Below, piece after piece: positions 627 through 40,284 of a stretch of 58,115 nt of DNA (within the stretch, counting starts at the first letter, position 1; the number at the start of each line of letters is the position of its first letter). The notes below the pieces were generated by a model. The model searched no databases. It worked only from the letters and a program-made list of their open reading frames with translations, and was not told the DNA's origin. Origin of the DNA: Pigoraptor vietnamica (lineage: Eukaryota; Opisthokonta; Filasterea); contig CALSCQ010001053.1 in assembly GCA_943704525.1 (NCBI GenBank), forward strand, positions 1 through 58,115. Direction: 5' to 3'. Both the position numbers and the translations under genes were made by a program.

Positions 627-1613
627 GAGCGACTATGTGGCGAGAAGGAGTCATCGTTGAGATGCAAATTGTGGTGTGCACTTTCCCACCCATTGCCAAT
701 CGCTTGTTTGCCTCGCGCGCAGATGCCTGATGCCCACACGATCGTGAGTGCGCTGCTCGACTTCAGCGTCCAGAAGCTGCCGAAGGAGGTCACGGAGCAG
801 CTCATCCTCAACCTCGCCACCCCGGAGGAGGTCCAGCTGATCGAGGTAAGCAGTTTGCCCTGCGGAAAGTCTGACCCCACTGCCTTTCTTACTTACTCCT
901 CTCGCTATTTTTTGTGCCGAGCAGGAGGCGCAGAAGGCCGGCGTGGTCCTCGACACGCCCGAGCAGTTCCTCTACGAGCTGCACCAGTTTCCGAACGTCA
1001 AGACGCACATTCGCAGCTGGCTCTTCTACCTGCAGTTCCCGGAGACGGCAGGCGAACTCGACGCGCACGTGCGGCAGCTGCTGGCCGCGGTACAGTCGGT
1101 CAAGTCGTCGCGCTCCCTCAGGAAGGCACGTGACATGGTCGCTTTGACTATCTACACGCGCACCCCGGCACGCACACATACACATCCCCACCGCGCGTGC
1201 GCATGCCTCCCGTCCACATTCGAATGGCACAGTTGTGCGTGTGGCATTGAATTGACACTTGTCTTGCGCGCTTCGCAGCTTCTCGGCGTCATCCTTGTGT
1301 ACGGCAACGTGATGAACGGCGGTACAAACCGCGGCCAAGCGGACGGCTTTGACGTTGAAATTCTGCCCAAGCTGCGCGACATTCGCGACGAGAAGGGCGC
1401 GTCACTCTACAAGCACCTCGCCGAGTTCGCGCGCGCGCGTGCGCCCACCGTCAACGCACTGCCGGAGGAACTTGCGCCCGTTCGCAAGGCGCGCGTGCTG
1501 TCGATGCAGCAGATCCGCACGGGGCTCACTGCGTTGGGCAACGACTTCCGAGATATCCGCTGCATTGTACTTTGTTGGATTGGTGAAATTCTCCTCTCTC
1601 TCTTTCTCTCCTC

Positions 1614-1648
<35 letters not shown>

Positions 1649-2609
1649 GCGTGTGTGCTGCCCGTGTTCATTACCCCAACGAAGTTGTGCTTCCTTGACC
1701 CTCGCGCTTGTTGTGTCCCCACCCGTGAAGACGGTCATTCTGCCCGTGCTTTCCCAACGAATTGCAGAGGGCGCCCAAAATCCATTCTACCACCGCATGT
1801 CGGCGTTCATTGGCGAAGGTCGGTGTCCAACACTGGCTCAAACTGTAGTGATGTGGCACCGCGTTTCCCTCTCCTCTGCGGCCCTGTGTTCGATTCCCAT
1901 CTCCGCTTCTTTGGCGCTTGATATTTTCCCATCGCTCTCACCTTCACGTTTTAGTTTCATCTACTATAACTTCTGCCCACACGCCCGTGCGCGCTCCTGT
2001 CTCTCATGGCTGTTACGTGGGATTTGACCCGTGTGTTACCGCGCGCAGCCGAGGACATGATCAACAAGCTGCGCGTGCAAGCGGACACGCTCGATTTTGA
2101 GTACCAGCGGCTGCTCTGTTACTTTGGCCTGTCGGAGGTCGACCGCCGCAAGAAGGCGACGGAGGACTTTTTCGCGTCTGTGTTTGAGTTTATCGCGGGC
2201 TATGAGCAGGCTGCGAAGGCGCTGGAGAAGCCGCCCGTCGCCGAGAAGAAGTGGGTCACGTGGGCGCGCTGTGGGCCACTCTGTATGGATGGCGTATTGT
2301 GTGTGGCACGTAACCATTGTGCGCCCCTCCGTGGCGCGTCTTTGTACATATAGACAGCGTATTGTGTGTGTCACGTGTCTACGCCACATTGTGATTCTCC
2401 CGTTTTCTTTCCTGTCTTCGCTGTCCGGCCATCACGTGCCGTATGTCCTCACCGCTCCCCGGCCTCCACTTGCTTACCGGCCCGTAACTTGCAGGCGCTT
2501 TGTGCTCAAGGAGGGCAAGAAGCTCCTCGACACGCCCGAGGGCGTCTCCGCCTTTGACGCCGTCATTGCGCAGGTGCGCGCGGGACAGCTCGCCAAGCAG
2601 ATGGCCTAA
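275..2609 (+). CDS. Formin, FH2 domain (3' part of gene)
   Basis: Actin nucleator and processive barbed-end capper. Visible exons are 275-479, 723-845, 925-1125, 1279-1552, 1723-1818, 2049-2250 and 2495-2609 (TAA). The translation follows an FH2 domain in order: TVWDNIDDD, the LEKKR-x-SIFIRK lasso/knob stretch, LPKEVTEQLI, the hallmark GNVMNGGTNRGQADGF, then a helical post region ending QLAKQMA. FH1 and the N-terminal regulatory domains lie outside the window; the frame requires a phase-2 exon upstream of 275. No DAD-like basic tail follows FH2. Intron 3 is GC-AG (GCACGT donor at 1126). Intron 4 (1553-1722) looks like a minor-spliceosome AT-AC intron. The domain call is secure; the formin subclass cannot be assigned. 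Confidence 0.93.
1553..1722 (+). other. Candidate U12-type AT-AC intron in the formin gene
   Basis: The donor reads ATATCCGC at 1553, a TTCCTTGAC branch-site match lies at 1691-1699 (branch A at 1698, 24 nt before the intron end) and the acceptor is CAC at 1720-1722. The exon before ends in phase 1 and the exon after supplies two bases, so the FH2 frame is kept. A conventional alternative (GT at 1567, AG at 1730) is also in frame, so this is the least certain of the four minor-type introns. Confidence 0.6.
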
Positions 2610-3247
2610 GGTGCCGAGTGGGAGGGCTCCAATAAACCAGCCGTTCCATTGCCCCAGCGATGTTCGCTGTTGCTTCCGAGACAATTCAGACCTACTAGCT
2701 CGATATTCCTTGGTAGACTATACGGCATGGCCATCTCCTCATTCACTATGACGCACGAGTTGATAATTTCAGATCGGCTGTGGACTCTACCGAGACCGCC
2801 GGTGGCAAACCAGAGGAAGGTGGGGACGACGTCAAGTCATACCAAAAACCTCGGGGGATGTGATTGGCAGCGGATTGGCGCGTGTGGAAAATATGCCCAA
2901 AATTATCACACGACTCCCCATGCGATAAGTCATACGTAGACTGGGTCACTGGGTTCCATGAGACTATAGAGGAACTCGATGAGACTATAGAGTAACTCGC
3001 AGTAAATATCGACTAGCTAAGGATTATTGAGTCGCCCGCACGCCTTTGCGTATCTCTTCCTTTTTTCCCCTTTCTCTCCAGCCGCCAAATGGCGGGAAAA
3101 TGCCACTTGCAAACGCGCGCAAACGAGCGACAGCCAACGCAAACGCAACAAAAAACAGAGACAGAAGACCCGCGCGCGCACACACTCAACACAAGCATCA
3201 ATGGTAAGGAAGTGCGTCACTAAAACTCAGGCAACACACGCGGAAGC
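2610..3247. other. Convergent intergenic region, formin 3' end to KNL2 3' end
   Basis: No supported gene. It holds a short tandem repeat: two 21-nt copies beginning ATGAGACTATAGAG at about 2958-2999. From 3020 the sequence is pyrimidine-rich, then purine/CA-rich. Both flanking genes end into it, so it is presumably 3'UTR and termination sequence. Confidence 0.6.
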
Positions 3248-6200
3248 TCAGTCCGAGAAATAGAAGTCTTCCTCTTCCTCGCTGTCCTTGTCCTTATCCG
3301 CACCGCCCACGCGAAACATGTCGGGTGCAATCGTAGCGGACGAACTCCCACGGCCCGCCCCGGCAGCAGGCCGTCCGTGTGTCGCCGAGCCTCCAGCACC
3401 ACCCGTCTTCGCCGCCAGCGTCGTACGAGCGGCACCAAGCGTCGGTCCCTTGACAGCCCTAACCGCAGCGCCCACACCGCCTCCCCTCGGGCCCAGCGTT
3501 CGCCTCGACGTTCGCATGCGCGACACGTACGCGTCCGCAACGTCGCGGTCGATTGGCCGCAGGAGCTCGCGCCCGAGAGACGGACTTCGGTTGCCCGTGC
3601 CACTGCTGTCCGAATCGCTCCCATCGTCCTCCTCGTCTTCGGACTTACGCGCGGCGCGTCCACGTCCCCTACCGGCGGGCGCAGCGCCCCCTCGTCCACG
3701 ACCGCGGCCCCGCCCTCGCCCGGCGCCACGTCCACGGCCCCGGGGCGCCGCACCCTCCGAATCGGACGACGACGACTCACTAGTTGCGGACGAATCGCTC
3801 TCCACGCGCCGCCGCTTGGGCGCCGGACCCGCGCCATCCGTGCGAATGGGCCGCTTCTTCAGTGGCGTCGACTCAAACACGTCGTCGTCGCCCTTGGCCT
3901 CCGCCATCTTCGCCATAATGTCGCGGAGGTTTCGACGCCGCTTGAGCGTCCCCGCGCCGCCCTCAATGACCAGTCCGCCGTCGGCGTCACGCCCACCCGC
4001 GTCGCCGCCGTCCTTCTTTCCGGGGGCGCGGCCCTTCCGCTTCACCTGTGCGGGCGTCGGGTGGCGGTCGTGGAACATGGCGCGGCACTCGGCGGCGGTG
4101 CGCGTGCCGACGAGCGCAGCAACAGTGTCCCAGTAATTGCGGTCGGTGGGGGACACGCGCTCGATGGCACTGTTGAGTGCCTTGCGCTCTTCGTCGGTCC
4201 ACGGCGTCGACTGGAAGGCGTCCTCGCTGCTGTCGCCGCCGCTCTCCGACTTGCCGCCGTTGGGCTCGGTCTGGGACAGCGCGTGGACGGCGAAGGTGAG
4301 CATCGACGAAAAACAAGGGCACGAGCACGAGTGGGCGGGTGGAGATGAGAAACGGCTGAAAGTCGCGCCGATGGATGCACACGCATTTGTATAGGCCCCA
4401 AACAAGTGTGTGCAAGACACAAACACATGCACACAGCGCAATAGTGTGCCATCACTGACCTTCACCGCGCGCATACGCTTCGTCTTCTTCTTAAGCTCCC
4501 CAAACATGTCCGCCGCGAGTGGACTGGCCTTCACCACAGTAACATCGCCCTTCGCCGTCACAATAATGCGCTCGCCCGCCCAAAACGCCATCGGCGGCTT
4601 TGCCACGCGGCCGCTGCGAGTGGTGCGCAGCCCGTCCCTTCCGTCGGCACTGCCGGGCGTCGTCGCGGTGCCCCCGCGCGAAGCTGGAGCCGCTGGCGCC
4701 CTCACTGCAGGCATTGGAAAGTGAGGTCAGACGTGCGTTTATGCCCAAACGGCACACGAAGACCTTCGCAGCACGAATAAAGTAGGCTACAGCAAGCAAC
4801 AAGCGGCACATACCCTTCGGCGGTCTGCCTTTTCCCTTCGCGGGCGACGCACTCGCAGGCGCAGGTGATTTCGCTCTCCTTTTGCTCTCGGGTTCGGACT
4901 CAGACTCGCTCGCGTCACGCGCGCGTTTCCTCTCTCCGCCTTTCGCCGGGGCGGACTGTGACCGTGCGCCCGCGCTTTCCTTCGCTTTGGTAGCTGCAGC
5001 TGAGGTGGGAGCAGCACCATCACTCGCGGGCGCGCCCTTACGCGGCGTACGTCGCGCGCCATCCGCCGTTCCTGCCTCGCTCAAGAGTGAGGGGACCCTT
5101 GCTGCCGATGCGAGAGGGCGTGGTGCCGTGACCGCTGACTTCGGTGCGTCACGCCCGCTATCAGTCGTCGCCGTTGTCGCACTCGCCGCAGTGGCGCTCG
5201 GAACGGAGACGGCGCTCCGACGCGGGGAACCCCTTGTTGAAACCCCAAACGATGGAACCGCCGACAAGACGTCTGGCCTCGTGGGCATAACGGGCACGAG
5301 CGCCTTGGAGGGTGTGAAAACGGGCGCCGCGGCACGCTTCTGAGGCGTCCCACGTGTCGTTGACGGAACCTCCTTCGGCGGCTCCGAATCTGCCGCCTTG
5401 CGAAGAGGCGACTTCTCGGTCACTGCCTCGGCACGCGCAGCCCTTGGCGCGGCCTTCTTCGCCACAGTCGCGTCCTGTCCCTTTTCCGCCCCCGCAGCCT
5501 CTGCAGCCGCGGCCGACTTCGAGGGAGACCTCGTTGTCGCTCCCTGTGCAGTCGGCGCAGAGTCCTTGGCAGGCGTCGCCGCATCCTTCGACAGGCGTGC
5601 ACGACGCGTTGTTGCGGACGCCGCTTTGGGGCTCGTTGCCCCTTGCCCAACGGATTCCCCCTTGTTTGGTGTCCGGACGTCCTTTTGCGGCGATGCGGCG
5701 CTCTCGGCGTGCTTCTCTTGCCCCTTCGCGCCGTCCGCTGCGTCTGCACCCGGCAGAAATGACTGCCACTTGGATGGAAAGCCGCGACTAAACGCTGCCG
5801 CCTGCGTAACGCCCGCTGCCGCCATCGCAGCCATGTCCGGACGCCCGCGAAGCCGCACCGCAGAACCGTCCGCGCACGTGACCACCAGCGCCGACGGCCT
5901 GTCGCGCACGGGCGTCGAGCGAAACGGCGTCCCCGTCGGCGCCTGGGTTGCCTCGTCGTACACATCCCCAACAACACACGGACCTTGTGGCGTCGACTCC
6001 ACGTGCCACCGACACAGGACGGCCTTGTACTCCTCGCTCTTCGCATCGCTGCCGTCCGATGCTTCGCCTCCTTGCACCGCCGCGGGAGCTTCGGGCTCCG
6101 TAGCTTGCCCTCTCCGAGATCGCCGCGGCGTCGCCGTGGGAGTGACCGCGGGCGTCGTCGCAGCCTTCGCCGTGCCCTCCGCCTTCGATTCCTGTGCCTT

Positions 6201-7606
6201 TCCCTTGGGCGCAACCACCTTCTTTGCCGATACAGGCGCATCGGCACTCGCCGAAGACGACAGTGCACCCGCGGACCCAAGACCCTCGGTGCGCGCGGAC
6301 GCGCCGTCTCGCGCGGCAGGTGGCACTTGTGCGGTCGTCGTCGCCGGTGCATGGGATGCCACCGTGGTCGGTGCCATCGCAGCGGGCGGTTCGCTCGAAC
6401 GTCCGGACGACAAGTGGCGCGCGACGGCCTCTGCGGCGACGTCGGGCGCCATCATGCCCGCCCCAATGTCCATGGCATCGTCGTCGTCATCGCGCCCAGT
6501 GCGCGTGGTCGAGCCGTAGTAGGCGTTGAGATCCTCCAAGTTCAGCGTGTTCAGGTCGGCGTCGCTCACGTCTCCGTGGGTGAACAGCGCGAGAGACGAG
6601 ATGTCGCTAGTGGCTGCCACCGCCGATGTCGGCGGGGAGAACGAGAGCGCGTACTGCGCCGCGCCGCCCTGCTGACCAACCCCGGATGCGCCCCCGGCTG
6701 TGGCACCGCCCTTCGCCTGTTCGCCCTCGCTACTTGCAGTCCCCGTCGATGCCGTTGCGCCCTTCGAGGCGGTGAGTGGTGGCGCGTGTTCTGTACCTGA
6801 CGGTGCCGAGCCGCCGACGAGTGCGGGCGTGACCCCGAGACCAGAGAGGGCCGCCGACACCGCCGGCACAGCCTTGCGAGTGGCTGTTGGAAGGGGACGC
6901 TTGAAGACCTCCGCCTCGGGCGCAGCCTGCGCGGCGACGTCCACGGAGGGAATGGTCGCTATTCCAAAAGGGCCAACCGCTTGCGATGCAAATTGCGGCG
7001 CGGGGCTTGCGAGCTTATCCGCGACAACCTGACGCGGAAAGAAAAATCAAATCAGACTTCTACTCCACACGACGAACAACACCCACAAGGGCAGGCGAGA
7101 GTGCGGTGACAACGGCAGCAACAGCAGCGAACCGCATCACGACGACGGACGATGCGTGCCTTTGGTAAAGGGCTGCTGCGCACGAGGCTGTCAAACTCGG
7201 CGACCGTCTTGCTGCGCTGCGAGAGGGCGCCGATGCCACCGCCAGCGGCGAAAGGGGCGCGCGTGGCCTGAGGCCGTATCAAACTGCGCAAGATGCAAAG
7301 CGAACGCACATATGAGACACGTGCGCAGATAACCAACGACAGAAGAGGACGAGGACGTAGTAGTGGCGCGGCCGTTGGCAAAAACAAGCACTGTGGATAA
7401 GATTGCAAGGAGCAGCAACATCACGACACACACCCCGCGCTCCCCGGGGGACCGCGTGACACGGGCTGCCCATTGACAGCCGGCGCAACGGGAGGCACAG
7501 ACGGCGCCGCGGCACCCCTCCCGGCGCCAATCGCGTGCCGAGGGAGTGGCGATCGCAGGTACGCCGGGTCGAGATTAAAAATGGCGCCGCTGTTTACGGG
7601 ATCCAT
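3248..7606 (-). CDS. KNL2: KNL2/M18BP1-like CENP-A licensing factor (SANTA + CENPC-like + SANT/Myb)
   Basis: Five exons on the minus strand: 7606-7434, 7283-7160, 7028-4814, 4704-4460 and 4270-3248, joining to 1,259 codons plus stop. Family knowledge: KNL2/Mis18BP1 recruits new CENP-A at centromeres. A SANTA domain spans roughly residues 425-520 (LCRWHVES, then VVGDVYDEATQAP, ending FSRGFPSKWQSF). A CENPC-like motif lies near residues 865-885 (RTTRSGRVAKPPMAFW). A SANT/Myb domain lies near 930-985 (PWTDEERKALNSAIER, then YWDTVAALVGTRTAAECRAM). Between and after these are long Ala/Pro/Ser-rich disordered stretches, an RG-repeat segment and an acidic end, EEEEDFYFSD. Intron 2 has a GC donor (GCACGC at 7159). 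The start ATG is the first Met in an open exon without upstream support. All three diagnostic modules in the right order make the identification strong. Confidence 0.85.
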
Positions 7607-10253: not shown

Positions 10254-13200
10254 TCAGTCCTTGAGGAACGTCTTGTTGAGCAGGTGGAGCGTCTTGTTGA
10301 CGTTGAGCTGCACGTACTCGAGGTCCAGCAGCTGCTGGTTGTCGTGCTGCTTCTCGAGCAGGTCCTCCAGCTGCAGCGTCATCTCCACAATGGACTTGTC
10401 GCGGCCTGCAACGCAAAGGGGTCGGATCAGCCGGCTGTTGTGCATCGACTTCACTGAAACAAGGGGACGAAAGACCGACAAAAGGCAACCCGTGGCACGT
10501 GCACCCTTCCACGCGAATGGCATCTTTTGGGACAGGCCCGCGCACACGCATGCGCACACGAGCAACAGGCCCACAAACGCCCAATACGCACCCTTGTAGA
10601 ACAGCGCAATGAGGAATGAGCCGGGCTCCGGCGAGGAGAAGTTGAAGTAGATGTTGTTCCGCCTGCGGTGCGGTGGCGTTCAGTTGGCTGCAACAGAGCG
10701 GCCAGGCGCACGTCCCCCGCACAAAAAGCGCAACAGAGCGCCAGCGCACATCTCCTGCACAACCGTGCAACGCACCTGTTTTCCGGAACGTCGCTCTCCA
10801 CAATGACGCCCTCCTTCTCGAGCTGGACGTGGTTGAAGCGCACGGGGCCCACAGCGCGCTTGCTGCCCTCGGCGGCGCCCTTGGCCGCGCGGTCCTTGCT
10901 CTTGAGCGTCGTGCCGCTGCCCGCCTGGCTGCGCACGTTCTGCAGGTAGACCTTGTAGGCGTCAATCTGCTGGCGCAGGTAGTTGTTGTGGTCGACGATG
11001 TTCTTGTACACGTTCTGGAGGCTCTTGAGCTCGTTGTCCACCTTCTCCTTCAGCCGCGGGAGGCCCTCGTACTTCTGCGCGCAACCGCAAGGCACATGCG
11101 ATGAGCAACGCAAAACACCGCTAGACGTTCGCGGCCACATACTGGCAGACACAGCAGCAGGCCTGTCGGCAGTGATCACAAGCCGCACGCCCAACGGCAC
11201 GCGATCGCCAGCACGCCCAGTCGCCACCCGCCTGCCGAATGTCGTCGTAGAGCGACTTTGTGTCCTTGAAGCCCTGGTCCGCGAGCGACTTGAGGTTCTC
11301 CGAGATGTTGTGCCCCATCCGCACGAGCCACTGGTTGTTCGACTTTTGCGTCGCCGCAATCATCGTCTCTATCGTCGGGGGAGGCACGCCGCGGAGGCCG
11401 CGCAGCACGCGTAGTCCCAGCGCCTTCGTGTCGACCTGGAGCAGGCTCGTGGGGTCTGCCACCTTTGAGTCTCGGCTGCTTCCCGCTTGCGACTGCGAGG
11501 GGCCTGCGCGCACAGCCACCACGTGATGAACAGATGTGCTCGGCTGCACGAACAAAGTAATGCGCCACCGTGCCAGCTAATGCATACGACAGGGCTCATA
11601 GATCGAATGCCACCCACCGTCCGTAGCGGCGTCCTCCTCCCATCGGCTGAAGAGGTTGAGTGCGACGGTGCGGTTGTCCTTGCGCGGCAGCTGCTCCGGC
11701 GCCGGCCCAAGGTCGTTGAGGATGATCGAGAGGTGGTCGTTCTTGTTCGCACACTGCGCAGAGTTCACCACACTCAGCCCCTTGCTAGCGTCCGCGTGCT
11801 GCGGCACACAAGCGCACCCACCAGCTCGTCCACGTGCTTCTGAAGCTGTGCGTGCACGTTGTAAATCTCGTTCAGCGTGATGTTGATGGTCAAATCCTTC
11901 CGCGAAAGGTACACGTACTTGTCGAGCTGCGAGGAAAATCGTCAGCACACGCGCCCCAAACACAAGCCCCACTCTCACAAACAGCAGCCGACGCAGTCCG
12001 ATGCAGCCGAAGCAACAGTGTGCGCACCTCCACAGCGTCGTAGAAGTCTTCGACGTCGCAAATGTTGTCGAGGAACGCCTGGAGGCGCGGCGCGTGCTGC
12101 ACGGTGAAGTCCGCGAGGGGCGCGAGGTACGGCTCCTTCTTGAAGTTGGGCTTGTTGGCGAGGTTCTGCAGGAGCTTTGCGACGAGCGTGAGGTTGCGGC
12201 GTGCGGCGCGCGAGGGCTTGTCGGCGATGAGCATGAACGAGTGGGGCGTGACAATGGCCGGATTCACAAAGCGCAGCAGGTAGAAGCCGCCGACGAGCGA
12301 CGTGAAGTTCTCCTCGGTGGCCTCGGGGTACTTTTGGCGCATGAGGTTGCGGATCTTCTTGCTGAGCCAGCGTATGCCATAGGGGATGCTCTCGAGGGAG
12401 CCGATCAGCGTCGACAGAAACTGCTCCGTCACCGAACACAGCTTCTCGATGCGTGCGACGGAACAGCAGAGTTAAGGACGCACGGGCACTCAGCAAACAC
12501 AAGCACACATCACTCCCAAGGACTCGAAGAGGCCAACACAGCCACCATGTGCCATGGAAAAGAGAGGCGGATATGAGGCTTGAGGATCTTCTGGACGTCG
12601 GCGTTGGCCGCGGCGTCCTCGTACGACACCACGCGGGGCAGCTCGCACGTCTGCCCGGTGGTCGTCTCAATGTCGTTGATCATCTGCTCGTAGACCTGCG
12701 AAACCGACAGCGCCTCCGTCTCAGCCCACTGTGCTCCACCGCACACCTCACGCCCACCGTCACGCTGGACCAATACTGCAACCGCACACATCCGTGGTAC
12801 AGCACCAACCCACGGCGCCCCTTTCGCACACGGCCCCTTTCGCACACGTCCCATACCTTCGACGGGTCAATTTCGAGGTTGAGGTCTCTGTTTTGGATCA
12901 GCTCCTGGATGCGCTGCGAGAGGCACGACTTGAGGTACTCCTGCCCAGGGCCCCGTCTGCAACAGCAGCGGCAGTCGCCATTGTCAGATCACCAAACAGC
13001 GGCAATTGAGGGCAAGAAGACGACAGGACAAAGGCACCGGGGACCTGCAAAAGGCCAGTCGCAAGGCCCGGGGACGCACGCACCGTGTGTATGTCGTCAT
13101 CATGCGGGAGACGCACGTGTTGGCGCGCAGCAGACCCGCCATCTCCGTCGCCGTGTTGAAGTCGTACTCGAGCGCCGTCTGCAGGTGCGCGTAAGCGTGA

Positions 13201-21697: not shown

Positions 21698-21721
21698 CGG
21701 ACGCCATGACAACCGCAAATT

Positions 21722-28463: not shown

Positions 28464-29202
28464 TACACTTGTAAAAATCACACGAGAGCAGAAATGCATA
28501 ACACACAACAACGGGACAAAGGGTCGCGATAGCAAGCAACGGCGAAAGATGAGAGCGGAATGAACAAGCAGCCTGGCAGCGCGCTTTGGGTCATGGTATG
28601 ATAAACTCCTGTGAAAGTAGAGAGGAGGGGTGTGTGGGTGGGGTGGGCATGCCGAGAGTGAGCCCCGTTGTGTTAGCCGGCGCACGCGCCCGTAAGCGCG
28701 CGGCCGACCGACCGCATAACTGTGCTATGACTAACGGCCACTCGACGCCGCCCAGCTCGGCTGCATGGCGACGGCAGTGAGATAACCGCTTTCAAGCACA
28801 TAGATGCTCTCTCTTTAACTCTCATTGTTGTGCGCAAAAAAAAAAAAAGCACAGGCACCCACCCAATGCGTCAACGCTGTCGGGCGGCGGCGGGGGATGG
28901 CGCCCTCTTGGGCCGGCACTCTCTGCCGCGTGTCCGGGGACTTTCCCCAAAGGCAAGCGAGCGACGTTCGTGCTCCGTGTGTTCCCTTCGTTTGGCAGTC
29001 CTTCGGCGATGCCCACCCAAGGGCCCTGCGTGTCAACGACCGCGCTTTTTGAGAGCACATGTGTGTGAGCGTGAGTGCGTGGGTGTGCTCAATGTCGAAT
29101 TTAAGTATTCACAATTTCTAGGGCGAACTCTGATTGAGACACAACGAACAGAACAGCGAAATCACGCCGTAAGCACTTTAATCGCTGAGTGTAAGACCGC
29201 GC
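28464..29202. other. Convergent intergenic region, helicase 3' end to DMC1 3' end
   Basis: No supported gene. It contains a 12-nt A run at about 28837 and a CGCGCGGCCGACCGACC patch near 28700. Small open frames on both strands overlap each other and lack family signatures. Confidence 0.5.
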
Positions 29203-30924
29203 TCACTCCTTCCCGTCGCAGATGCCGCCCTCGCTGATTGCAAACATGGCCTCCGCCTCGGGCAAATTGGGCGAGTCGTAGATCTTGCACACGCGCGTCT
29301 CGCCGCGGCCCTTGCGCAGGTACAGCCGAGTCGTCGACGCGTGCGCGATAATGTTGCCGCCGATCGGCTTCTTGGGGTCGGGAACAAACGTCTGCACGGG
29401 GTGTCGGTTAGATCTAGTGCACTCGCAGCGCAGCACGACGCCACGCAGCAGCACACACAGTTTGCGCGCATGCAGCTCACCATTCCCGCGCCAGGATCGG
29501 CGGTCATCTGGCAATCGAAACGGGTGCATGGGTCGTTAGTCCCAGAGCAAACAGACCACGCAGCCGTCATATGTCCGCGAATCGTACCTGGTTGGTGATG
29601 ACGACGGCAATGTTGAACTCCTCCGCGAGCTTGATAAGGCGCGAGAGCATCTGCCCAAGCTTCTGCTGGCGGTCGGCGAGCTCTCCGCGGCCGCAGAAGT
29701 CGACGCGGAACATGGCCATCACCGAGTCGATGATCTGCACGAGGGCGCGCTCTGAGTAGCAGCCAAACGAAGCAGGCGCACGAAAGCAGGCTCACCAGCA
29801 GGCGGTAGATGCCGCGCTCCTCCGCGAATTTGGCGGCACACATGTTGATGAGGTCCATCTGATGCTCGCCTGGTGCAATCGAATGAGCGAGGGTGCCATT
29901 GATCCGTCAAAGGAGTCGGCACTCACTGTTGAACGCGCGAGCGAACATGACGTTCTCGAGCACCGCATTCTTGTCGAGGTTGAAGCGGTCCGCGATAGCA
30001 GCGAGGCGGTCAGGGCGGGTGTCCTGTGGTTAAGGGCGTAACGCGCGTGCGGCAAAACACAAGCGCGACAAGAAGATCCACTTGGACGGATATAATGTGC
30101 CCTGCAAGGAAAGCAGTTATTATTAGAGCTGCTGAGCATGAGCAATGCGCGTGGTATCACGCACCTCCGTATCGATGTAGGCGACCTTGCCGCCGGCGCC
30201 GCCGAGGTCGGGGGGAAGCTGGGTCGTCACGCAGAGCGTGTGGCAGATCTGCGTCTTTCCGGTGCGGAATTCGCCGAATATTTCCGTAATGGCCATGCTC
30301 TCGACGCCGCCTGCGCGCGAATCAAAGGGTTGCTCACTCATGCCGCTAGAGTCATTGCGAGAGACCCACCGCCAAGAAGCTTGTTGAGCTCGACGCTACC
30401 CGTGCCGATCTGGAAGACCTGCTGCCGGCGCACAGAGAACTCGAGCGCCGTGATGAAGCCGCTGTCCTGTAGTAGTGGGCTCAGCAAATGGAACACACGA
30501 CAGCTTACACAACAGTGCACTTACGAGCATCTTGGACGCCGCCTCCTTCATCTTCTCCATCTTCGCCTCGGAGATGCCCTTGATGTTGCACAGGTTCTTA
30601 CGCGTGGCCATGGCGACACCCTGCGGTATGGCGACGGGAGGTTTGAGCTGCGGACGACATGGAAATACAGCACATCGCACGCCCACCTTCACAGTGCAAA
30701 TGCCCGCGGCCTTGAGCTTTGCAATGTCCGCGGCGTTAATGTTGTGCTTCTGGAGCTCGTCGACGTCCTGGTAAAAGATATCCTGCAAGCACCCCCACGG
30801 TCAGACAGTCGCACTACGCCCTCCCCTCCTTTTAGCTCGCCAATCGCCGACTCCTTATGAGACCGACCCCGCCATCGTCCTGCATCGTCTGGTCGGCAAC
30901 GACCTGGTCGTCGTTCGCGTACAT
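29203..30924 (-). CDS. DMC1: DMC1 meiotic recombinase
   Basis: Eleven exons: 30924-30868, 30782-30687, 30620-30525, 30466-30370, 30310-30165, 30101-30094, 30018-29927, 29869-29796, 29734-29588, 29507-29481 and 29391-29203, exactly 342 codons plus stop (human DMC1 is 340). It carries an N-terminal HhH region ([19 protein letters not shown]), Walker [10 protein letters not shown], Walker [16 protein letters not shown], the L1/L2 region [12 protein letters not shown] and the end [40 protein letters not shown] and ADPGAGM favour DMC1 over RAD51. It forms strand-exchange filaments at meiotic breaks. Exon 6 is only 8 nt (GTF) and is followed by a U12-type AT-AC intron; exon 10 is 27 nt. The gene looks intact, evidence for meiosis. 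Confidence 0.96.
30019..30093 (-). other. U12-type AT-AC intron in DMC1
   Basis: 75-nt intron with donor ATATCCGTCC, branch site CCCTTAAC (branch A at 30030, 11 nt from the end) and acceptor GGACAC. Exon 6 ends TT and exon 7 begins C, making the invariant Phe of GTFRPDR. The nearby conventional CAG acceptor (30024-30026) would not restore the conserved sequence. Confidence 0.93.
30094..30101 (-). other. DMC1: 8-nt microexon of DMC1
   Basis: GGCACATT, flanked upstream by a GTGCGT...TTGCAG intron (30102-30164) and downstream by the AT-AC intron. It encodes G-T and two bases of F in the conserved YIDTEGTFRPDR segment, so skipping it would remove invariant residues. Confidence 0.9.
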
Positions 30925-31379
30925 TTTCGCTACGAGGGGATGGGAGGGGAAGAGAGACATAAGTGAATGACGAAGACATCAGGTGGATTCAAAAGTGCTC
31001 ACCAGATGACACGAGTGGATGCACACGTGAAGTCGAATCTCGTCGATTGCTGTGTGAGGAAAGAAGTGTCAGCACACAGGACCTGAGAAGATGTCGAAAA
31101 GCGCGTTGTTTCACCTTGAGCTCACTTGAGACGTCGAGCGGCAAATCGTGCAAAAGCTCCGTTGATTTCGAGCACACGCCGTTGCGCGCTTGTGTGTCGC
31201 GAAAGTTACACAGAGGAAGGAGAGTCAGGCGGTCTTCTCTTGTACTGCGCTGTTGCTGGATGGTGGGCAGTGCGATGTCTCTGTGTGAGTGTGTGTGTGT
31301 CTGTGTGTGTGCAATTTGCAAGTGGATCCCTGACGTCATCAAATTTCTCACTCATCAGCCAACAACAAACAGTGCGTTT
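30925..31379. promoter_or_regulatory. DMC1 upstream region / PUS7 3' flank
   Basis: 455 bp with no supported exon. It contains a (GT)n patch at about 31286-31312. Both neighbours read leftwards, so the DMC1 promoter lies here together with the end of the PUS7 transcript. Confidence 0.5.
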
Positions 31380-33464
31380 CTATTGGTCACTGCGCGCTGC
31401 TGCCTCGCTGCCAGCCGCCGCCGCCTCGCCACTGGCCGCAGTGCCCGCTGCAGTCAACAGTGCGTGGTAGCGCGTCACCGTCGAGGACTTGAGCAGCTCG
31501 CGAATGGCCATCGTCGCATATGTCGACGAAGGCAGCGACATTTCAAACTGCAGCGCCACAAACGGCTGCGCGACAGCGGGGGCGGGCACAGGGTCCGTTT
31601 CCATGCGCGACTCCGACGCCTGGCTCTCCATTAACCTGTCGAGGTCCGTCTTAACGAGCGTCTCGTTGGGGTCGGTGTAAGGAATGAGGCGCCACGTGAA
31701 GTCCGCAGGGCGCGCGATGAGCGGCCGGTAACCGCCCGCCAGCGAGAACTCGCGGGGCTTGCCGCGCCCGCTCGCGTCCGACAGGTCCACGTCGTCCTCG
31801 CGCATCCTGTCCTGGTACAGCTGCGCAAGTTCATGCGACGGGTACACCACATCGTACCCAGGGAGCGGAAGCAAGACGTCGTCGATCGTCCAGCGACCCG
31901 ACGCCGCCTCGTCCGCCGTCAGCACACGCACGTTCGCATCGCTCGTTCCGCGCCGATCGCTCGACCCGTTCCCACTTGCGCCGGCGTCGGCCGCAGCACC
32001 ACCCTCAGCCGCGTCCGCAGGCACGTCGCCCGCAGGGATCTCAGCAACGTCCTCAGCCGCAGACTCCTGCACTGAAGCGCCGGGTTGTGCCACGACGACA
32101 TCGCCGGCGACAGGCCCCGCGAGGCCAAACCGCCGAATGCGCTCCGAAGCCATGCAGTTCCACACGTAGCTCTGGTAGCTGTGGATGTAGATGAGGCGGA
32201 GGTTGCGCGGAAGTGCCGACTTGAGAGCGCCCAGGTAGTCCGTCTTGGCGCGCGTCGCAAGGGCGTGCAGCAGGCGCCGCTCAAAGTCGAGGTGCTTCGG
32301 CAGCTGCGCCATCGCGCCCGCCGCGTCCCGCTTCTCCGTCCACAGCCGCCGCGCCTCAGACTGCTCCGGCGGGTCGTTGTCGCGCGGCCACAGGATCAAA
32401 TCGACCGCCTTCTCGTAGTCGCCCCGCAGCAGCGCCCGCCCAATCGCGTGCGTGGGAATCGAGCTCGTCCCGAAGCGCTGGAGGCCGTAGTAGTTGACAA
32501 AGCCGCGCTCCGACAGCGACCGGCACGCCGCGTCGGCAGTCGCCGCGTCGCACGTGACGTTGCGGATCGAAATCACGAAGCGGTTTCCCCGCAGTTCACC
32601 CAGCCGCATTGGCTCTGTCGCCGAGCGAAAATTGCCGAGGCGAATACCCATCAGCCGCCTGTTGAGACCGGCCAGCCGCTCCGCGGGCACGCGGTACGCC
32701 GCCACGTTCTGCACCGTCACTCCGCGGCGGTCCTTCGTGCCCGCGTAAGAGAATATCTTACTCCCCGTCTTCATCATCGACGCAAGGAGGTTGATGGCAG
32801 CGAGCGTGTCGCGGTTTTCCTTGTACAACACAAACGCGGTGTAGTCGGGCCCCTTGTACTCGCGCCGCCCCCGCCGGTTGCCCCGCTCGTCCCGGCCCAG
32901 CCGAATCCGCACCAACTTCTGCTCGGAAGTGGGTCCATCGACGGTGTCGGTCGTTAGGTTCGGATAGCAAGCTCGAAATGCCTCGTGCAACCGAGTCCGC
33001 GCCGACTTGTCGCCCGGGAACGGGACGGTTAGCTCCCGCTTGGGGTCCCGCGACGCAGCCAACGCGCTGATGTCGGAAGCGACAGACTCGCCGAGTGCCG
33101 CCACAAGCGACGCCATCGCTGCGGACGTGTCTGCTTCTGCGACCTGCGCGTCTGCCGGGGCGCTGTCGGCTGCCTGCGCCTGCGGAGGGACGCTGAGGCT
33201 CGTGAGGTGCACGACGTTCCCGCCGAGATCGATCTCGTTGACGAGGAAGTCCGTGAATCGCTGCTTGAGGATGCCGAAGAACCCGGCGTGGTCGGAGATG
33301 TACTCTGTAATGCCCACGTCCTGCTCGGTGGACATGCCGAGGCTGTCGGCGTCGACTTTGGTGGCGACGGCGCGATCGTCGCCGATCTTCAGCCGCTTCG
33401 CCTCGTGCGCCATCGTGAACAGGCGCCGAAAGCGCGGAAGCGCACGTGTGGCAACTTTGTGCAT
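31380..33464 (-). CDS. PUS7: tRNA/mRNA pseudouridine synthase, TruD family (PUS7-like)
   Basis: Uninterrupted 694-codon frame from ATG 33464 (second in-frame Met at 33413). TruD/Pus7 isomerises uridine 13 in tRNAs and sites in mRNA and U2 snRNA. The catalytic-Asp motif is present near residue 240 (SYAGTKDRRGVTVQ), preceded by RFTDFLVNEID and followed by GNRFVISIRNV, NYYGLQRFGT and the IYIHSYQSYVWN motif. A low-complexity Ala/Asp insert sits between the catalytic core and the C-terminal part (FTWRLIPYTD). The residues before the second Met (KVATRALPRFRRLFT) are basic and could target mitochondria from the first start. It has no introns, unlike almost every neighbour. Identification is firm. 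Confidence 0.94.
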   Translation of the reverse strand: MHKVATRALPRFRRLFTMAHEAKRLKIGDDRAVATKVDADSLGMSTEQDVGITEYISDHAGFFGILKQRFTDFLVNEIDLGGNVVHLTSLSVPPQAQAADSAPADAQVAEADTSAAMASLVAALGESVASDISALAASRDPKRELTVPFPGDKSARTRLHEAFRACYPNLTTDTVDGPTSEQKLVRIRLGRDERGNRRGRREYKGPDYTAFVLYKENRDTLAAINLLASMMKTGSKIFSYAGTKDRRGVTVQNVAAYRVPAERLAGLNRRLMGIRLGNFRSATEPMRLGELRGNRFVISIRNVTCDAATADAACRSLSERGFVNYYGLQRFGTSSIPTHAIGRALLRGDYEKAVDLILWPRDNDPPEQSEARRLWTEKRDAAGAMAQLPKHLDFERRLLHALATRAKTDYLGALKSALPRNLRLIYIHSYQSYVWNCMASERIRRFGLAGPVAGDVVVAQPGASVQESAAEDVAEIPAGDVPADAAEGGAAADAGASGNGSSDRRGTSDANVRVLTADEAASGRWTIDDVLLPLPGYDVVYPSHELAQLYQDRMREDDVDLSDASGRGKPREFSLAGGYRPLIARPADFTWRLIPYTDPNETLVKTDLDRLMESQASESRMETDPVPAPAVAQPFVALQFEMSLPSSTYATMAIRELLKSSTVTRYHALLTAAGTAASGEAAAAGSEAAARSDQ

Positions 33465-33748
33465 GTCCCGAAGTCCGGCGTGCGGATGGAAGACTTGATT
33501 TCGGCATCGAAACACGTGCGAGTGCAGTGTGCGTGTACTGCCGTTGCACACACGTGGAAATGTACGGACTCGGCACGTGACCGCACGAGTGTGTATTGGA
33601 AGTGTGTCTGAATTTCTAGCAAAAAACGGGACTCGTTGCCAATTCGGACCTTCGGATACCTCGTCGACACACACCACACAACCCTCTGTACGATTCGTTT
33701 TCAACTGGCCCGACGCTCTAGTTTCTCGTGCCGTTGCGCAGCGTGGAG
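33465..33748. promoter_or_regulatory. Divergent promoter, PUS7 (-) / mitochondrial helical protein (+)
   Basis: 284 bp between opposed starts. No recognised factor site; no ORF with family support. Confidence 0.45.
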
Positions 33749-34978
33749 ATGTCGATGCTTGGGGCGGCATCGCGGGCCGCGGTGCGGCTGTCGCGGCCTC
33801 TTGCGTATGTGCCGCGCGGTGCCGCGGCCGCAGACCCCTTTGGCGTGTGGCGCGGCCATCCCATTGCGGGCTACGCAAAGAAGCCCATGGGCACAGGTGA
33901 GCGTTGCTTCTCTCTCTGCGCCGCGTCGTCGGACAATCGCCTGTGGCCCGTGCTTGTTCGCAGCGTGCGCCCCATGAGGTCGGGCATTCTATTTGCTTTG
34001 ATCAGATTCCGTTTGCATTTGCAATGCACACGCTAAGCTCCGTACACCCCTTCGTTGGCAGCCAAAACCGCCCAGAAGGCGCGCGCCAGCAGCAAAACGT
34101 CGCGGCAAGTTCTCGCCGAATTCGACGAAATGATGCGACAGCGCGCGCCCCTCACCGAGGCCGAGAAGGAGCGGCGGCTCCGGAGGAAGGATCTGATTGC
34201 GCTGATCCGCACCACGCGCGAACGGAACACCCCCATGGGTTGGCGGTCGCTGCTCGAACTGCTGCGCCTCAGCCAGGTGCCCAACGACGTCGCGGAGTGT
34301 TTCTCGTCCCTCCAGCTGCTGCGGACCTTCCGCACGGACACGCATCCCGAGCGACTGGACCCAAAGCCCGTGCAGCGGGCATTCGCCGACACGTGCGTGC
34401 GCCTGGGCCTAACACGCGAGCTGGCCCTCCTTATCCGCGACGGAAAGCCTTACGGTCTCTTGCCAGAGAGCGCCACGTTTTCGTACGTTCTCCGAAAGGT
34501 CGCCGAAGCGGGCGATGTCGACACATACAAGCAGCTCGAAGCGCTGGCTGCGGAAGAGAAAATCCAACTGCCGCTCGTTGGGCACTTTCGCGCCAAGCTG
34601 GCGTTGGCGGTGGCAGAACACGCCGCGGGCAAGGCTAGCGCCGACGACGCGATCGCGCGCGTGAAGGCCGCGTTGACCGAGTGCATCAACGTACGAAAGG
34701 AGGGCGGGGCCGCGCGCAAGGCATTTTTGCCGACAACATTCGCCGCGGAAGCGCTGGGGAAGCTCGGCGTGGAAGACCCCTCGACCGTCCTCTCGGCCTT
34801 TGTGCCTGACGCGAGCGAGATTGACGTCCGGATATGGAAGGACCGCGCGGCGGGAAAGGACAACGCCCAGCGGAAGAAGGAACCCGCGCAACCCGAGCAA
34901 GTGACGCAAGTGACGCAGGCCGCGCCGAAGAAGCCGGCCGCGAGAAAGGCGCCCCGCGCGAAAGCCGTGTCTTTGTGA
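33749..34978 (+). CDS. Mitochondrial alpha-helical repeat protein, unidentified
   Basis: Two exons, 33749-33896 and 34062-34978, 354 codons plus stop. The N-terminus is a strong mitochondrial presequence (MSMLGAASRAAVRLSRPLAY). The body is all-helical with PPR/TPR-like spacing (ATFSYVLRKVAEAGDVDTYK), without catalytic motifs, and ends in a Lys/Ala/Pro-rich basic tail (KKPAARKAPRAKAVSL). The YAKKPMG segment and helical repeats would suit a mitoribosomal or mitochondrial RNA-binding protein (for example an mS27-like protein), but I do not recognise a specific family. Confidence 0.8.
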
Positions 34979-35243
34979 GGCTGTGCTTTAAGCTGTGTGT
35001 GGAAGGCAGTTTGCGCCTTTGGGCTGTCGCGTGCTGCGTGTGCGTCGCGCGTATGCGTGTGAGCGCGTGAAATCTGCGTCAATACACCGGGTTGTTGTTG
35101 GCGTACGTTCGCTTCAAAGCAGAAGGGCACTCAGCAGGATCCCCAGTGACAAACGTGCGACGTCCGCCCCGTCCTTTGAAATGGCAACGCAGTCGATGTG
35201 AGATGAACCTCCTCGCTGAGCGACTCAGTTACGCAAGAGCGGT
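34979..35243. other. Convergent intergenic region, helical protein / thioredoxin-like
   Basis: 265 bp between the two stop codons. No feature recognised. Confidence 0.5.
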
Positions 35244-35843
35244 TCATTTTGGCTTCACGGCTTCAGAGATCATCGCCCTTAGGGCAGCAGCGTCCGCCCC
35301 GCAGAGCTCGTCCACTTTGCCGCCATGTCGATACACAACAAACGTCGGCAGTCCTCTCACGTCTTCGCGCTGCGCCAACCCCTGCACAAGCGGAAGGGCG
35401 TTCAATGGCCGCCGCGTGGCCGCAGGACGAAAGTGGCCACGTACCGTGTGTCGGTCCACGTTCACGGACAAAAAAGAGACATTTGAAAAGTCCCCGGCGA
35501 TGCTTTGGTACACGTCGGTTATTGTTCTGGACGCGGCGCACCTGCAATACGCACACATGTCGGTTCCCGTGGCACCAGGGTGTGGCGCATCACACAGCCC
35601 AAACAACCACACACACAGTTCCAAAGATGGCCGGCGGACCAACGACGACGAGAGAGCACACTCGCTTACCACGGTGCCATGAACGCAGCGACAACAGCCT
35701 GCGCCGTCTGCATGTCAGTCTTGGGCGCTCGCACTGATGCGTGTGCGACGAATGTACGGCCATGGCCAACTCACCGCGCTCGAGTTGTCCGCCACGAGCG
35801 CATCAAAGTCGCTCGCGGACGTCACAGTTCGTGGCACTGTCAT
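35244..35843 (-). CDS. Thioredoxin-like protein with a CAAS active site
   Basis: Four exons: 35843-35775, 35707-35670, 35541-35445 and 35381-35244, 113 codons plus stop, a normal single-domain thioredoxin length. The fold order is conserved: an N-terminal strand and helix (SASDFDALVAD), VVAAFMAPW, VSFLSVNVD, the cis-Pro loop VRGLPTFVVYRHG and GADAAALRAMI. The active site reads WCAAS instead of WCGPC, so the resolving cysteine is replaced by Ser. A disulfide exchange cycle is therefore not possible in the usual dithiol way; monothiol or chaperone-like roles are possible. The W-C junction falls on an exon boundary (phase 2), and both splice sites are good. No targeting peptide is evident. Confidence 0.85.
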
Positions 35844-36203
35844 TTCCACAAGACAATTGGTTTGCCCAAGGAACGTTGCCGGCGTGGACACTCAAGAACC
35901 GCTGTGCAAACTGCGGCGCGTGAAACAAAACCGAAATTTGAATCAATGTGGCGCGTGACATCATGGTCCAAATCCCAATCTAAATTTAGAGAAACGTCAT
36001 CAGCCTGCTATTCATAGCACGGCGAGGGCATAAAGCGGCGCCGAGATCTAACCAACGGAAGGCACAAGCACCGACCGAGACAAACACCCGCGACCACTGC
36101 TGCAAAGCAAGCAGCCACTGACGAGACAGCACAACACAAGCACAAAGGGAACGCCGCAACGCATCGACAAACGACGTCGACGTGCATCCAGTACGGGCAG
36201 AGG
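35844..36203. promoter_or_regulatory. Divergent promoter, thioredoxin-like (-) / cpRAS-VWA (+)
   Basis: 360 bp. It contains GCCGAGATCTAACC at about 36039, a partial match to the palindromic element seen at 21.7 and 43.2 kb, and an AT-rich patch at 35925-36000. Confidence 0.45.
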
Positions 36204-39146
36204 ATGGAGTTTGCCAGCGACTTTGCGCTCGTCATTGACAGCAACGAGCGCGAAGAGGTCACCATCAGCGACACGGGCGTGTTATCAACGCAGCGCGCAG
36301 CGGCCGTCGGAGATGATGTGGTCAGTAGCGGGCGTTTTATTCACCTGTCGGTATGAAAGCATCGACAGCCGTTGACACGCACTCACCCGCGCTCTGTCCC
36401 AGGAGACGTGCCTTATCGACATGCTCGACACCGCCGGGCAAGAGGAGTACTCGTGCATGCGCGACATGGTGAGCAACCAAAGCTTAGGGGACGTCGCGTG
36501 CATGGTGAGAGTTGCGTGGCATGACAATTCCCCAATTCTCTACCTTCGCAGTACATGCGCCAAGCGAATGCCTACATCATCGTCTATTCGATCACGTCCG
36601 CGTCCTCCCTCAACGAGGCGCGCGACATCATGGACCTCACGCTCCGCCTGGTCGATTCCCCGCGGGGCACCGTGCCCATGGTGTTGATCGGTAACAAGTG
36701 CGACCTCGAGGAGCAACGGCAGGTCACGCGCGCCGAGGGGCTCCGTCTGGCGGCAGAGTACAGCGCAGGCTTCTTCGAGACGTCCGCGCGCACGCGCGTT
36801 AACATCGACGAAGCCGTCCACGATCTCATCCGCCGAACGCCGCGAAGCTCGGGAAGGGATTACAAGGTACGAAGTGTGTGCGTGTGTGCCCTTCGCACGC
36901 CTCCGGTCACCGCTGAGAAAACCTCTCGCAGGTGGTGCTCATGGGCGCTGGCGGCGTGGGCAAGAGCGCCTTCTGCGTGCAGTTCGTCCAGAGCGTGTTC
37001 GTGGACTGCTACGACCCGACCATCGAGGACTCCTACCGCAAGCAGATTGTCGTGCCGGGCATCCCACGCGCCATGCTGCCGGCACAGACCGCGCGCAGGC
37101 GCCGCTCACTCCTCGCGAGGCTCTTCGGGTGCGCCGCTTCCGACGGTCCCGAGCAAGGCGCGCCTGTTTTCGCTCCGGCGTCCGGACGGAAGGTCAAGGT
37201 GACCAAAGCGGACACCAACGCCCTCGTCATCACGCTGGGTGCTCACGTGACGGGCGACGGCGCTGCGTTTGCGGCGGCGACGGGCGATCCGATTGCGTGC
37301 GCGCGCTGCGAAGCCGTCATGACGTCGGTCTCTGCGCCGCGCCGAAACAAGGACGGACAGCTGTATTGGGACTGGTGAGGCACCCGCTCGCAGCAAAGCA
37401 CGCGCGACTGGTCGGCACAACGAATGCTCACGCCCACCTCCCTTTTCTTTGCAGCGAGTTCTGCGGCGCGCCGAACAAGCCTGATGCCTGGGACGAGGAA
37501 ATCCCGCGCACACCCGCGCTATCGTTCCAGCTGGCTGCGCCGACGGGTGGCAGCACGTCCGCAAGCAGTTCGCCCGGGGCCACGCGCGGTCCGGGCGTAG
37601 TCGTGTTCTGCGTCGACACGAGCGGCTCCATGGGCGTGACCACCGAAATTCCCCCACTCCAGCGTAAGTCACAGCTTGATGCTCGCCTCTGTCCCCTCCC
37701 TCCTACTCCCCCCCCCACACACACAAAAAGAAACGCACTCACACACAAACACCAACACCAATGCTTACGCCGCATCGATTACCCTACCCTGCAGTGGAGT
37801 GGAGCCGCCTTCGCGGGTCTCCCGGGGCGCGCGAGTTCATCAGCCGCCTCAAATGCGTGCAGATGGCCGTGCAGAGGCACGCCGAGCGCCTGGCCGCGCA
37901 GCACCCGACCACGCGCGTGGCCCTCGTCACCTTCGGCAGCGAAATCACGTGCCACATCCACGGCGGCAGCGACCGCGTCTTCGCCGGTGACAAGCTCAAC
38001 GACCGAGAGCTCCTCGTGCGCGAGGGACGCGCGCTTTCGGCGTCGCTCGCGCCCATCAAGGCCGCCGAGGGCGCGCTGATCGAGTGCGTCAAGCGCCTGG
38101 AGGAAAAGGGAGGCACGGCTCTCGGTCCCGCCCTCGCCATCGCCGCCGGCATGTGCGCCGAGGCAGGCGGCGGCGAGGTCTTTGTGTGCTCGGACGGCCT
38201 TCCGAACGTCGCGCTGGGCGCCGTGAGCGAGGGATCGCTCGGGGACACGGCCGAGCAGCGCGCCGCAAGCGCCTTCTACGCCACGATGGGCGAGTTCGCC
38301 GCCGCACACGCGACGACCATTTCCGTGATTGGCCTCGAGGGCACTGGCGGATGCGGCCTCGAATATCTCCGCGGCTGTGCGCGCGCAACTGCGGGAACAG
38401 TGACGCTCCTCCACCCGCTCGAGCTCGTGCGCCAGATCCGCGTCATCTCGCAGAATCCAGTCGTCGCCACGGCCGCCGAGATAACCGTCGCTGCGCCCGC
38501 GAACGTCGAAGTCGAAATTGTTGGACGCGGCGAGGCTGCCACCGCGCGCGGGCATGGCAAGGCGACCGTTCAGCTTGCGAACGTCAACGCAAACACGGAC
38601 GTGTGCGTGCGCTTCCAAGTGCGCGACACGCGCGCCGCAGTGGGCTCCGAGATGCCCTTCCAGGTGCGCATGACGTTCACGCGTGCCAAGGACGGTGCGC
38701 GCGTGCAGCTCGTGTCGACGCAGAAGGTCCGCGTCACGCGCAGCCGCGACGCCGCCGACGAGACATGCAACGTGGCCGTCGTGTCACTCGTCGCCGTGCA
38801 TGAGGCTGCGGCATACGCGGAGAAGGGCGAGTTCGAGGCCGCCCAGCGCACTCTCGCTGCAACCGAGCGCCTGCTGTCGCGCGCGGCCAAGTCCGACCGC
38901 CAGCAAGAAGAGTACTACATACTCGCGGCGGAGGGGGAGAAGCTCGACGGCGAGATTGCGCGGTGCCGCTCGGGCGAAAAGGCGGGGGACGCCGCGGCCA
39001 AAGTGTTCGCGGGAATGCGCGAGGCGCCCCTGCGGATGTTTCTGAGCGGCGCGGCGAAGAAAGAAGCGGTGAAGCGACGCATGGCGGCCGCGGAGGAGGC
39101 GCCGGAGCTCGCCGCACAGTACTACGCATACCGCTTCGAGGCGTGA
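36204..39146 (+). CDS. Circularly permuted Ras-like GTPase fused to zinc ribbon and VWA domain (cpRAS-VWA)
   Basis: Six exons: 36204-36320, 36403-36468, 36552-36866, 36932-37374, 37455-37663 and 37795-39146, exactly 833 codons plus stop. Motif order is G3 DTAGQEEY (about residue 48), G4 GNKCDLE (about 110), G5 FETSAR (about 137), then G1 GAGGVGKS (about 172) and G2 [12 protein letters not shown] (about 193). A normal Ras runs G1-G2-G3-G4-G5, so the domain is cut before G3 and rejoined through [12 protein letters not shown]. After it come two CxxC pairs (CARC and CEFC, a Sec23-like zinc ribbon), then a VWA domain with MIDAS DTSGSMG and a beta-sandwich/helical tail. This is the architecture published as cpRAS, patchily present in metazoans, amoebozoans and excavates. 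All five GTPase motifs look competent. Cellular role is unknown in the family. The end of exon 1 is the least certain junction. Confidence 0.94.
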
Positions 39147-39479
39147 GAGGGAAGAAATGCACATAAATAGAGAATGTCTCGCACTGTGCTTCGTGGCAAG
39201 ACAGCGGTGCCGTCTGTGAATAGAGACGCGTTCGAAGGCAGTCGATAGCCACAACTAGCTATGCGCACGCACATGGCGACACAGAAATGCCGGAAGATCG
39301 GCAAGTCGCGACCCCACCGCGAACGAGACGGCCGTAACATTCGTAACATCGTTATGACATCATCGTGACGCAGGCGGCTCAGCTGGGAGCCGCTCACTTT
39401 GAAGAACCCAGCAGCACACGAATCACGCCTCCCCTTTTTTTTGCTTCCCTGGGCTCTGTTTTTTTTGCACACCTCAACC
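39147..39479. other. Intergenic, cpRAS 3' flank and LSM5 promoter
   Basis: 333 bp, AT-richer near 39240-39360. A T-rich stretch (two T8 runs near 39435 and 39460) lies just before the LSM5 ATG. No coding signal. Confidence 0.5.
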
Positions 39480-40284
39480 ATGACAGACGTCAACCCTTCT
39501 CACCTGCTGCCGCTCGGTGCGTGACTGTTGCTGTGTCGTGTGTACGTGAAGTGACTCGTCGGTGGCTGTGTACTAACTCCAGCTTCCGTCGTCTCCGCAG
39601 AGCTCATCGACAAGTGCATCGGCTCGCGCATTCACGTGATCATGAAGAGCGAGAAGGAGATTGTGGGGACTCTTCTCGGCTTCGACGACTTTGTCAGTAT
39701 CCGCCCTCCAAGCGCGTCTGTGTGTCTGTGTGCGCGTGTCTGTGTGCCTGTGTGTAGGTGTGTGCGTGTGCGTGTGCGTGTTTGAGTTGCCTTGCGTGGC
39801 GTGTTGATGTACTGCTGTTTGCGGCGCAGCTGCATTGACCCATCGACTCCATCCGTTCGTGTTGGCGCCTTGACCTCGTTCGCTCCTTTCCCTGCGTCCA
39901 GACATGGTTATGGAGGACGTGACTGAATTGTGAGTGGCCCTCTCCGCGTGCTCGTTTTTCTTGCAGATTTTCAGTTTCGTTCGTCAGCTTAAAAAGGTGA
40001 CCAATCACTTACTGTCGCGTGTTTCTCGCAGCGAGATGACCGCGGAAGGCCGGAGGGTGACGAAGCTGGAGCAGATCCTCCTCAACGGCAACAACATCTG
40101 CATGGTGGGACATGGCGGGCGTCTTGTCACGTGCCTTCGCGCGCTGTCATCAAGCTCAGTCGCGTGCGGCGCTGCTTGTGCAAGTATTGCCAACCTTGCT
40201 CTCTCATAATCCTTTTCTGACCCATTTGTGTTTTTTATCGTGCAGCTGATCCCCGGTGGAGAGTATCCGCACTGTTTGTGTTGA
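39480..40284 (+). CDS. LSM5: U6 snRNA-associated Sm-like protein LSm5
   Basis: Five exons: 39480-39516, 39601-39696, 39902-39929, 40032-40104 and 40246-40284, giving about 90 residues, the LSm5 length. The Sm1 motif runs from LELIDKCIGSRIHVIMKSEK to GTLLGFDDFVNMV, and Sm2 contains QILLNGNNICMLIPGG. LSm5 is part of the Lsm2-8 ring on U6 (splicing) and the Lsm1-7 ring (mRNA decay). The C-terminus (EYPHCLC) departs from the usual GPEV-type end. Intron 2 has U12-type signals. Exon 3 is only 28 nt. Identification is certain. Confidence 0.97.
39697..39901 (+). other. U12-type GT-AG intron in LSM5
   Basis: Donor GTATCCGCCC, branch site GCCTTGAC (A at 39873, 28 nt from the end) and acceptor CCAG. 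Splicing joins GTC-A to AC, coding the VNMV segment conserved in LSm5. The interior is a (GT)n-rich tract. The branch distance is longer than usual for minor introns. Confidence 0.8.

Follow-up and report, generated by a model that had tools for sequence, protein, structure and literature searches.

U12-type introns in the window

The window, by which we mean the whole stretch of 58,115 nucleotides analysed here, belongs to the Pigoraptor vietnamica genome, which is reported to have been assembled from cultures (PMC9492541). It contains five introns, in four genes, that are predicted from their letters to be spliced as U12-type introns, three of the AT-AC and two of the GT-AG subtype. The AT-AC introns reside in a formin FH2 gene (1553..1722, plus strand; donor ATATCCGC, branch site TTCCTTGAC, branch A 24 nt from the 3' end), in a RasGAP-related region of an IQGAP gene (12453..12574, minus strand; donor ATATCCGC, branch site TCCTTAAC, 19 nt) and in DMC1 (30019..30093, minus strand; donor ATATCCGT, branch site CCCTTAAC, 11 nt), all three ending in CAC. 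The GT-AG introns both interrupt LSM5 on the plus strand, one at 39697..39901 (donor GTATCCGC, branch site GCCTTGAC, CAG end, 28 nt) and one at 40263..40538 (donor GTATCCGC, branch site TTCCTTAAC, 12 nt). All but the last of these had been listed in the first-pass annotation, with ATATCC or GTATCC donors, CCTTGAC or CCTTAAC branch sites and three CAC ends, and these four were found as described; the second LSM5 intron was missing from that list and was detected by a scan. Read directly, the branch site is CCTTGAC in the formin and the first LSM5 intron and CCTTAAC in IQGAP and DMC1. All five introns possess a CCTTRAC motif and an RTATCC donor core, in all five an AT donor is paired with an AC end or a GT donor with an AG end, and none is in phase 0, as judged from the frames read. 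The branch A of U12-type introns usually lies 10-20 nt from the 3' end, a range that two of the window introns exceed.

The first four introns are of the U12-type class that had been proposed for them, and splicing at the predicted sites restores a conserved protein in DMC1, LSM5 and IQGAP and, less sharply, in formin. In DMC1 (29203..30924, minus strand, with a tentative start codon), the reading, YIDTEGTFRPDR, requires an 8-nt micro-exon, GGCACATT (30094..30101, minus strand), that supplies the conserved G-T-F. When splice-site pairs around the junction were enumerated, the AT-AC pair scored 376 against Capsaspora DMC1, versus 345 for the best GT-AG or GC-AG alternative, and the junction is ungapped in the alignment with DMC1/LIM15 from the PDB. 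In the query used for relatives and for the PDB, about nine residues (LKPPVAIPQ) align as an insertion, probably an intron read as exon; these lie away from the U12 junction, and the scoring of 376 versus 345 used other exons. The closest named relative is DMC1 of Capsaspora owczarzaki (83% identity), followed by matches at 72% (an unnamed metagenome protein) and 71%. The micro-exon is flanked by a major GT-AG intron on one side and the minor AT-AC intron on the other; it would be notable for an exon of 8 nt to be defined with a different spliceosome at either end. Just downstream of DMC1 is a gene for RNase MRP RNA (28646-29014, minus strand; 115.3 bits).

LSM5 (39480..40551, plus strand) has six exons, encoding MTDVNPSHLLPLELIDKCIGS...VTEFEMTAEG...LIPGGEGPQ-stop, and residues 4-87 align, gap-free, with LSm5 of solved structures; the alignment query was off by one residue, having L where the gene model has F. 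Two of its five introns are U12-type, versus the one minor intron per gene that has been described as typical (PMC8329584). The IQGAP alignment also passes through its junction gap-free. The formin junction is less sharp because of a 3-residue gap beside it, one residue past the junction, in the alignment with the FH2 domain of DIAPH1, and the search for formin relatives produced none at E <= 1e-30.

Donor sequences across the genome

In all five window introns the donor is RTATCCG, not RTATCCTT, with G at +7 in every case and T at +7/+8 in none, an unusual trait that the first-pass annotation did not record. Over 267,033 bases that include the window, 9 of 31 RTATCCG sites have CCTTRAC 40-600 nt downstream, compared to 1 of 37 sites at which RTATCC is followed by A, C or T (Fisher P = 0.003). 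One of the nine pairs (L002) was rejected as a chance match, lying antisense to the U6atac gene. Of 11 local candidates three were dropped, among them those at window positions 45980 (minus strand; branch CCTTGAT, 623 nt away) and 44341 (minus strand; donor ATATCCC).

The usual minor donor is given as RTATCCTT(T), and one published study required the TT (PMC2846911). With position +7 left open, the pattern RTATCC-N(55-147)-TCCTTRAC, searched genome-wide in three spacing slices, has 87 matches, versus 13 for the reversed pattern, although some of these matches look coding. Of these matches, 67 carry G at +7, 11 carry C, 5 carry T and 4 carry A, and +7/+8 reads GC in 58 and TT in 2. The matches without G at +7 number 20, where 13 are expected by chance. 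Of 58 background RTATCC sites without a nearby branch site, 22 have G at +7 (P = 2e-6) and 7 have GC at +7/+8 (P = 2e-11). Thus the donor is shifted at +7/+8 throughout the genome. Four of the 87 matches (C424, C425, C564, and C1181) read RTATCCCG, as if a C had been inserted, and these may be variants or chance matches.

As TT is missing at +7/+8, we file these introns as variant U12-type, by homology of the machinery. With their U12-type counterparts in animals, plants and most fungi (RTATCCTTT, TCCTTRAC) they have in common the RTATCC core, the AT-AC and GT-AG subtypes, the branch site and the U12, U4atac and U6atac snRNAs, and they differ in having GC instead of TT at +7/+8 and in the U6atac box, GCCGA instead of AAGGA. 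A literature search at the level of titles and abstracts found nothing on the minor introns of filastereans or on RTATCCGC donors, which does not establish absence from print.

snRNAs of the minor spliceosome

The minor-spliceosome snRNAs to which the first-pass annotation had pointed were recovered in part: genes for U6atac (81.4 bits), U12 (73.8 bits) and U4atac (64 bits) all score above their Rfam cut-offs, and U11 was not detected in partial searches. U12 retains GUAAGGAA, which pairs with the branch site. U4atac and U6atac look like live genes because they pair strongly with each other (17 bases, -31.1 kcal/mol) and have a promoter element in common, an identical TGTCCCACAAG at -68 of both. 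This element is also present upstream of U5, and GTCCCAYAAG is present upstream of U12, U1 and U2. Taken together, TGTCCCACAAG or GTCCCAYAAG lies approximately 67-74 nt upstream of U6atac, U4atac, U5, U12, U2 and U1, at loci L002, L004 and L033 (C932, C1072, and C505) and on C1296, C464 and C621.

In protists, U11 readily escapes detection. It was not found by an Rfam search in which 39 of 1226 candidates were scored, nor in the flanks of 75 further promoter-like sites, of which the last 64 were all read and 58 of these 64 scanned with Rfam. What the promoter-element search did recover was U5, U1 and U2, along with two small genes resembling Y RNA or a nematode sRNA. Of these two, both located behind the promoter element and both with a T-run, the one at L056 (C284) matches a nematode sRNA family at 41.4 bits, above the cut-off, and the one at L092 (C1110) matches Y RNA at 29.7 bits, below the cut-off. 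A zinc finger of the U11-48K CHHC type is encoded on C1271, the single match above the cut-off (28.2 versus 21.1 bits), in a family that also includes unrelated CHHC proteins.

In the one U6atac gene found, at C932:8234-8352, the donor box is altered. In the Rfam alignment AUGAGCCGAGAG stands in place of the consensus AUGAAAGGAGAG, so that AAGGA has become GCCGA, with C opposite +7G, G opposite +8C and a C·C mismatch at +6. In the register known from suppressor work, +4 pairs with nucleotide 16 through +8 with nucleotide 12, and pairing at +6 is thought to be required. In this register the organism's own box forms four of five pairs with RTATCCGC (+4, +5, +7, and +8) and the consensus box three of five; the DMC1-type donor, ATATCCGT, forms four of five with either. 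The letters opposite +7 and +8 have thus changed as co-evolution predicts, and the letter at +6 does not fit. The computed duplex with RTATCCGC is -2.5 kcal/mol for the own box, weak because of the C·C at +6, versus -3.3 kcal/mol for the consensus box, the references being -5.7 kcal/mol for the canonical pair and -8.7 kcal/mol for an exact complement. This mismatch is the main unexplained fact, and it could reflect a mistake in the assembly, another U6atac gene that was not assembled or a real tolerance. A genome search for a second U6atac copy found none, with one exact match and four others at three mismatches, versus 10 for the reversed control.

Proposed evolution of the donor and of U6atac

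We consider it likely that this genome retains a functional minor spliceosome with U12-type introns in ordinary numbers, and that its minor 5' splice-site code, formerly RTATCCTT, became RTATCCGC together with a change in the U6atac box. The shift would be specific to the lineage of this filasterean. The CCTTRAC branch site and the U12 branch-recognition sequence would have stayed unchanged, and the U6atac box would have gone from AAGGA to GCCGA, which gives +7G a C partner and +8C a G partner. That the two changes represent a single co-evolution, and that U11 has changed as well, is what we infer. A bolder statement, plausible but somewhat short of probable, is that the minor 5' splice-site code has been rewritten throughout a lineage in a close unicellular relative of animals, TT being replaced by GC across hundreds of introns along with U6atac, with the branch half of the code held fixed and the mismatch at +6 tolerated or even used.

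The strongest rival accepts the donor shift as real but has U11, together with U11-48K, as its driver, the U6atac changes being partly drift and the +6 mismatch being tolerated. U11, with U11-48K, reads the minor 5' site first, the U11-48K-type zinc finger appears to be present, and the own U6atac box is energetically no better for RTATCCGC than the consensus box. However, of the three altered letters in U6atac, two restore pairs, at +7 and +8, and with U11 not found in the partial searches its 5' end lends this proposal no support. We regard an origin led by U11 as unlikely, though more probable than the remaining alternatives.

Simple drift, without any recoding, appears less probable still. 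Under this proposal, T at +7/+8 would have decayed to G or C in a G+C-rich genome (58-67% G+C in the window) in which only RTATCC is read, and a consensus U6atac would indeed pair with RTATCC via +4 to +6 regardless of what follows. Drift, however, predicts a mixture of letters at +7/+8, and so the predominance of GC in 58 of 87 matches, versus 7 of 58 background sites, speaks against it, as does a U6atac box changed exactly opposite these two positions.

If the bolder statement holds, a helix between U6atac and the donor that is broken by a central C·C would be tolerated, or even exploited, in catalysis. The mismatch at +6 is a sharp, testable oddity, and the frequency of minor introns, as detailed below, is ordinary. 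A natural exchange of letters between the donor and U6atac would provide a handle on how a code common to hundreds of introns changes, and it would also bear on whether U11 or U6atac leads. The minor 5' splice site is generally handled as almost invariant, and as scanners are built on RTATCCTT, introns with RTATCCGC would score low or escape them; some lineages may, we suspect, have been wrongly called poor in minor introns.

Number and subtypes of minor introns

Minor introns had been suggested by the first-pass annotation to be unusually common here, and this is not borne out. Over a genome size taken as 32.5 Mb, RTATCCGC occurs at 1409 sites, versus 652 for the reversed control. Of the first 60 of these 1409 sites, 12 have CCTTRAC within approximately 300 nt downstream, versus 2 on the reverse strand (20 versus 7 with a looser branch score), from which we estimate approximately 235 (105-409) minor introns genome-wide, a number that does not count introns of greater length or those with a different donor or a weaker branch site. 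A second estimate, with a very wide error, of approximately 490 comes from three candidates in 200 kb (20 segments of 10 kb picked regardless of introns), and a third, of approximately 750, from the excess of RTATCCGC over the reversed control alone, a control that is not codon-matched. The three estimates are not in full agreement. On the first, minor introns make up approximately 0.2-0.7% of all introns, with the denominator (approximately 56,000) scaled from the annotation's unverified count of about 100 introns in 58 kb, versus approximately 0.3% in vertebrates (PMC10639083). An exceptional density is rejected, and the number of minor introns in this genome is ordinary, below the thousands of a Physarum-like expansion. 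The window is a local cluster, with five introns versus 0.42 expected, and windows of this size with at least five are expected 0.04 times genome-wide, or 0.48 times if the true number is 400.

An AT-AC majority is rejected as well. AT donors make up 29 of 58 RTATCCGC matches in the three genome-wide slices (95% interval 37-63%) and GT donors the other 29, of which one pair (C657 and C1141) is an identical sequence counted twice; in the window the share is three of five once the second LSM5 intron is counted. The identical intron on C657 and C1141 lies at contig ends, suggesting overlapping contigs or a duplicated stretch. A share of about half is above that reported for human, at 24% (PMC8280824) or approximately 26% (PMC10639083), and below that reported for Blastocystis, at 77% (PMC10639083; PMC5608401). 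Blastocystis, which is reported to have minor introns in the hundreds, with AT-AC over-represented, as well as all four snRNAs (PMC10639083; PMC5608401), resembles the present system in the order of intron number and in AT-AC enrichment and differs from it in the higher AT-AC share and in that U11, not found here in a partial search, was found there. As to the 3' ends, of 19 introns sampled genome-wide, 10 have AT donors, with YAC within 32 nt in 9 of these and YAG in 3; of the 9 with GT donors, one of which is cut by a contig end, 5 have YAC and 5 have YAG.

One known case of extreme proliferation is Physarum polycephalum, whose minor introns have been described as expanded and transformed (PMC10639083; PMC8329584), numbering over 20,000 (PMC8329584). 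Physarum is likewise a protist with minor splice sites departing from the usual, and the first-pass annotation suggested a comparable lineage, with many minor introns, whether retained or acquired, and AT-AC in the majority. The five minor introns in 58 kb, three of them AT-AC, and the two higher genome-wide estimates lean in this direction, but approximately 235 (105-409) from 60 sites compares poorly with over 20,000, AT donors account for only half of the matches, and the highest estimate depends on the control that lacks codon matching, leaving such a lineage very improbable. Finally, that the motifs match by chance or that GT-AG introns have been modelled wrongly, as short motifs and some coding-like matches might suggest, is scarcely credible given the conserved protein restored at the DMC1, LSM5 and IQGAP junctions and the 87 donor/branch matches versus 13 for the reversed pattern.
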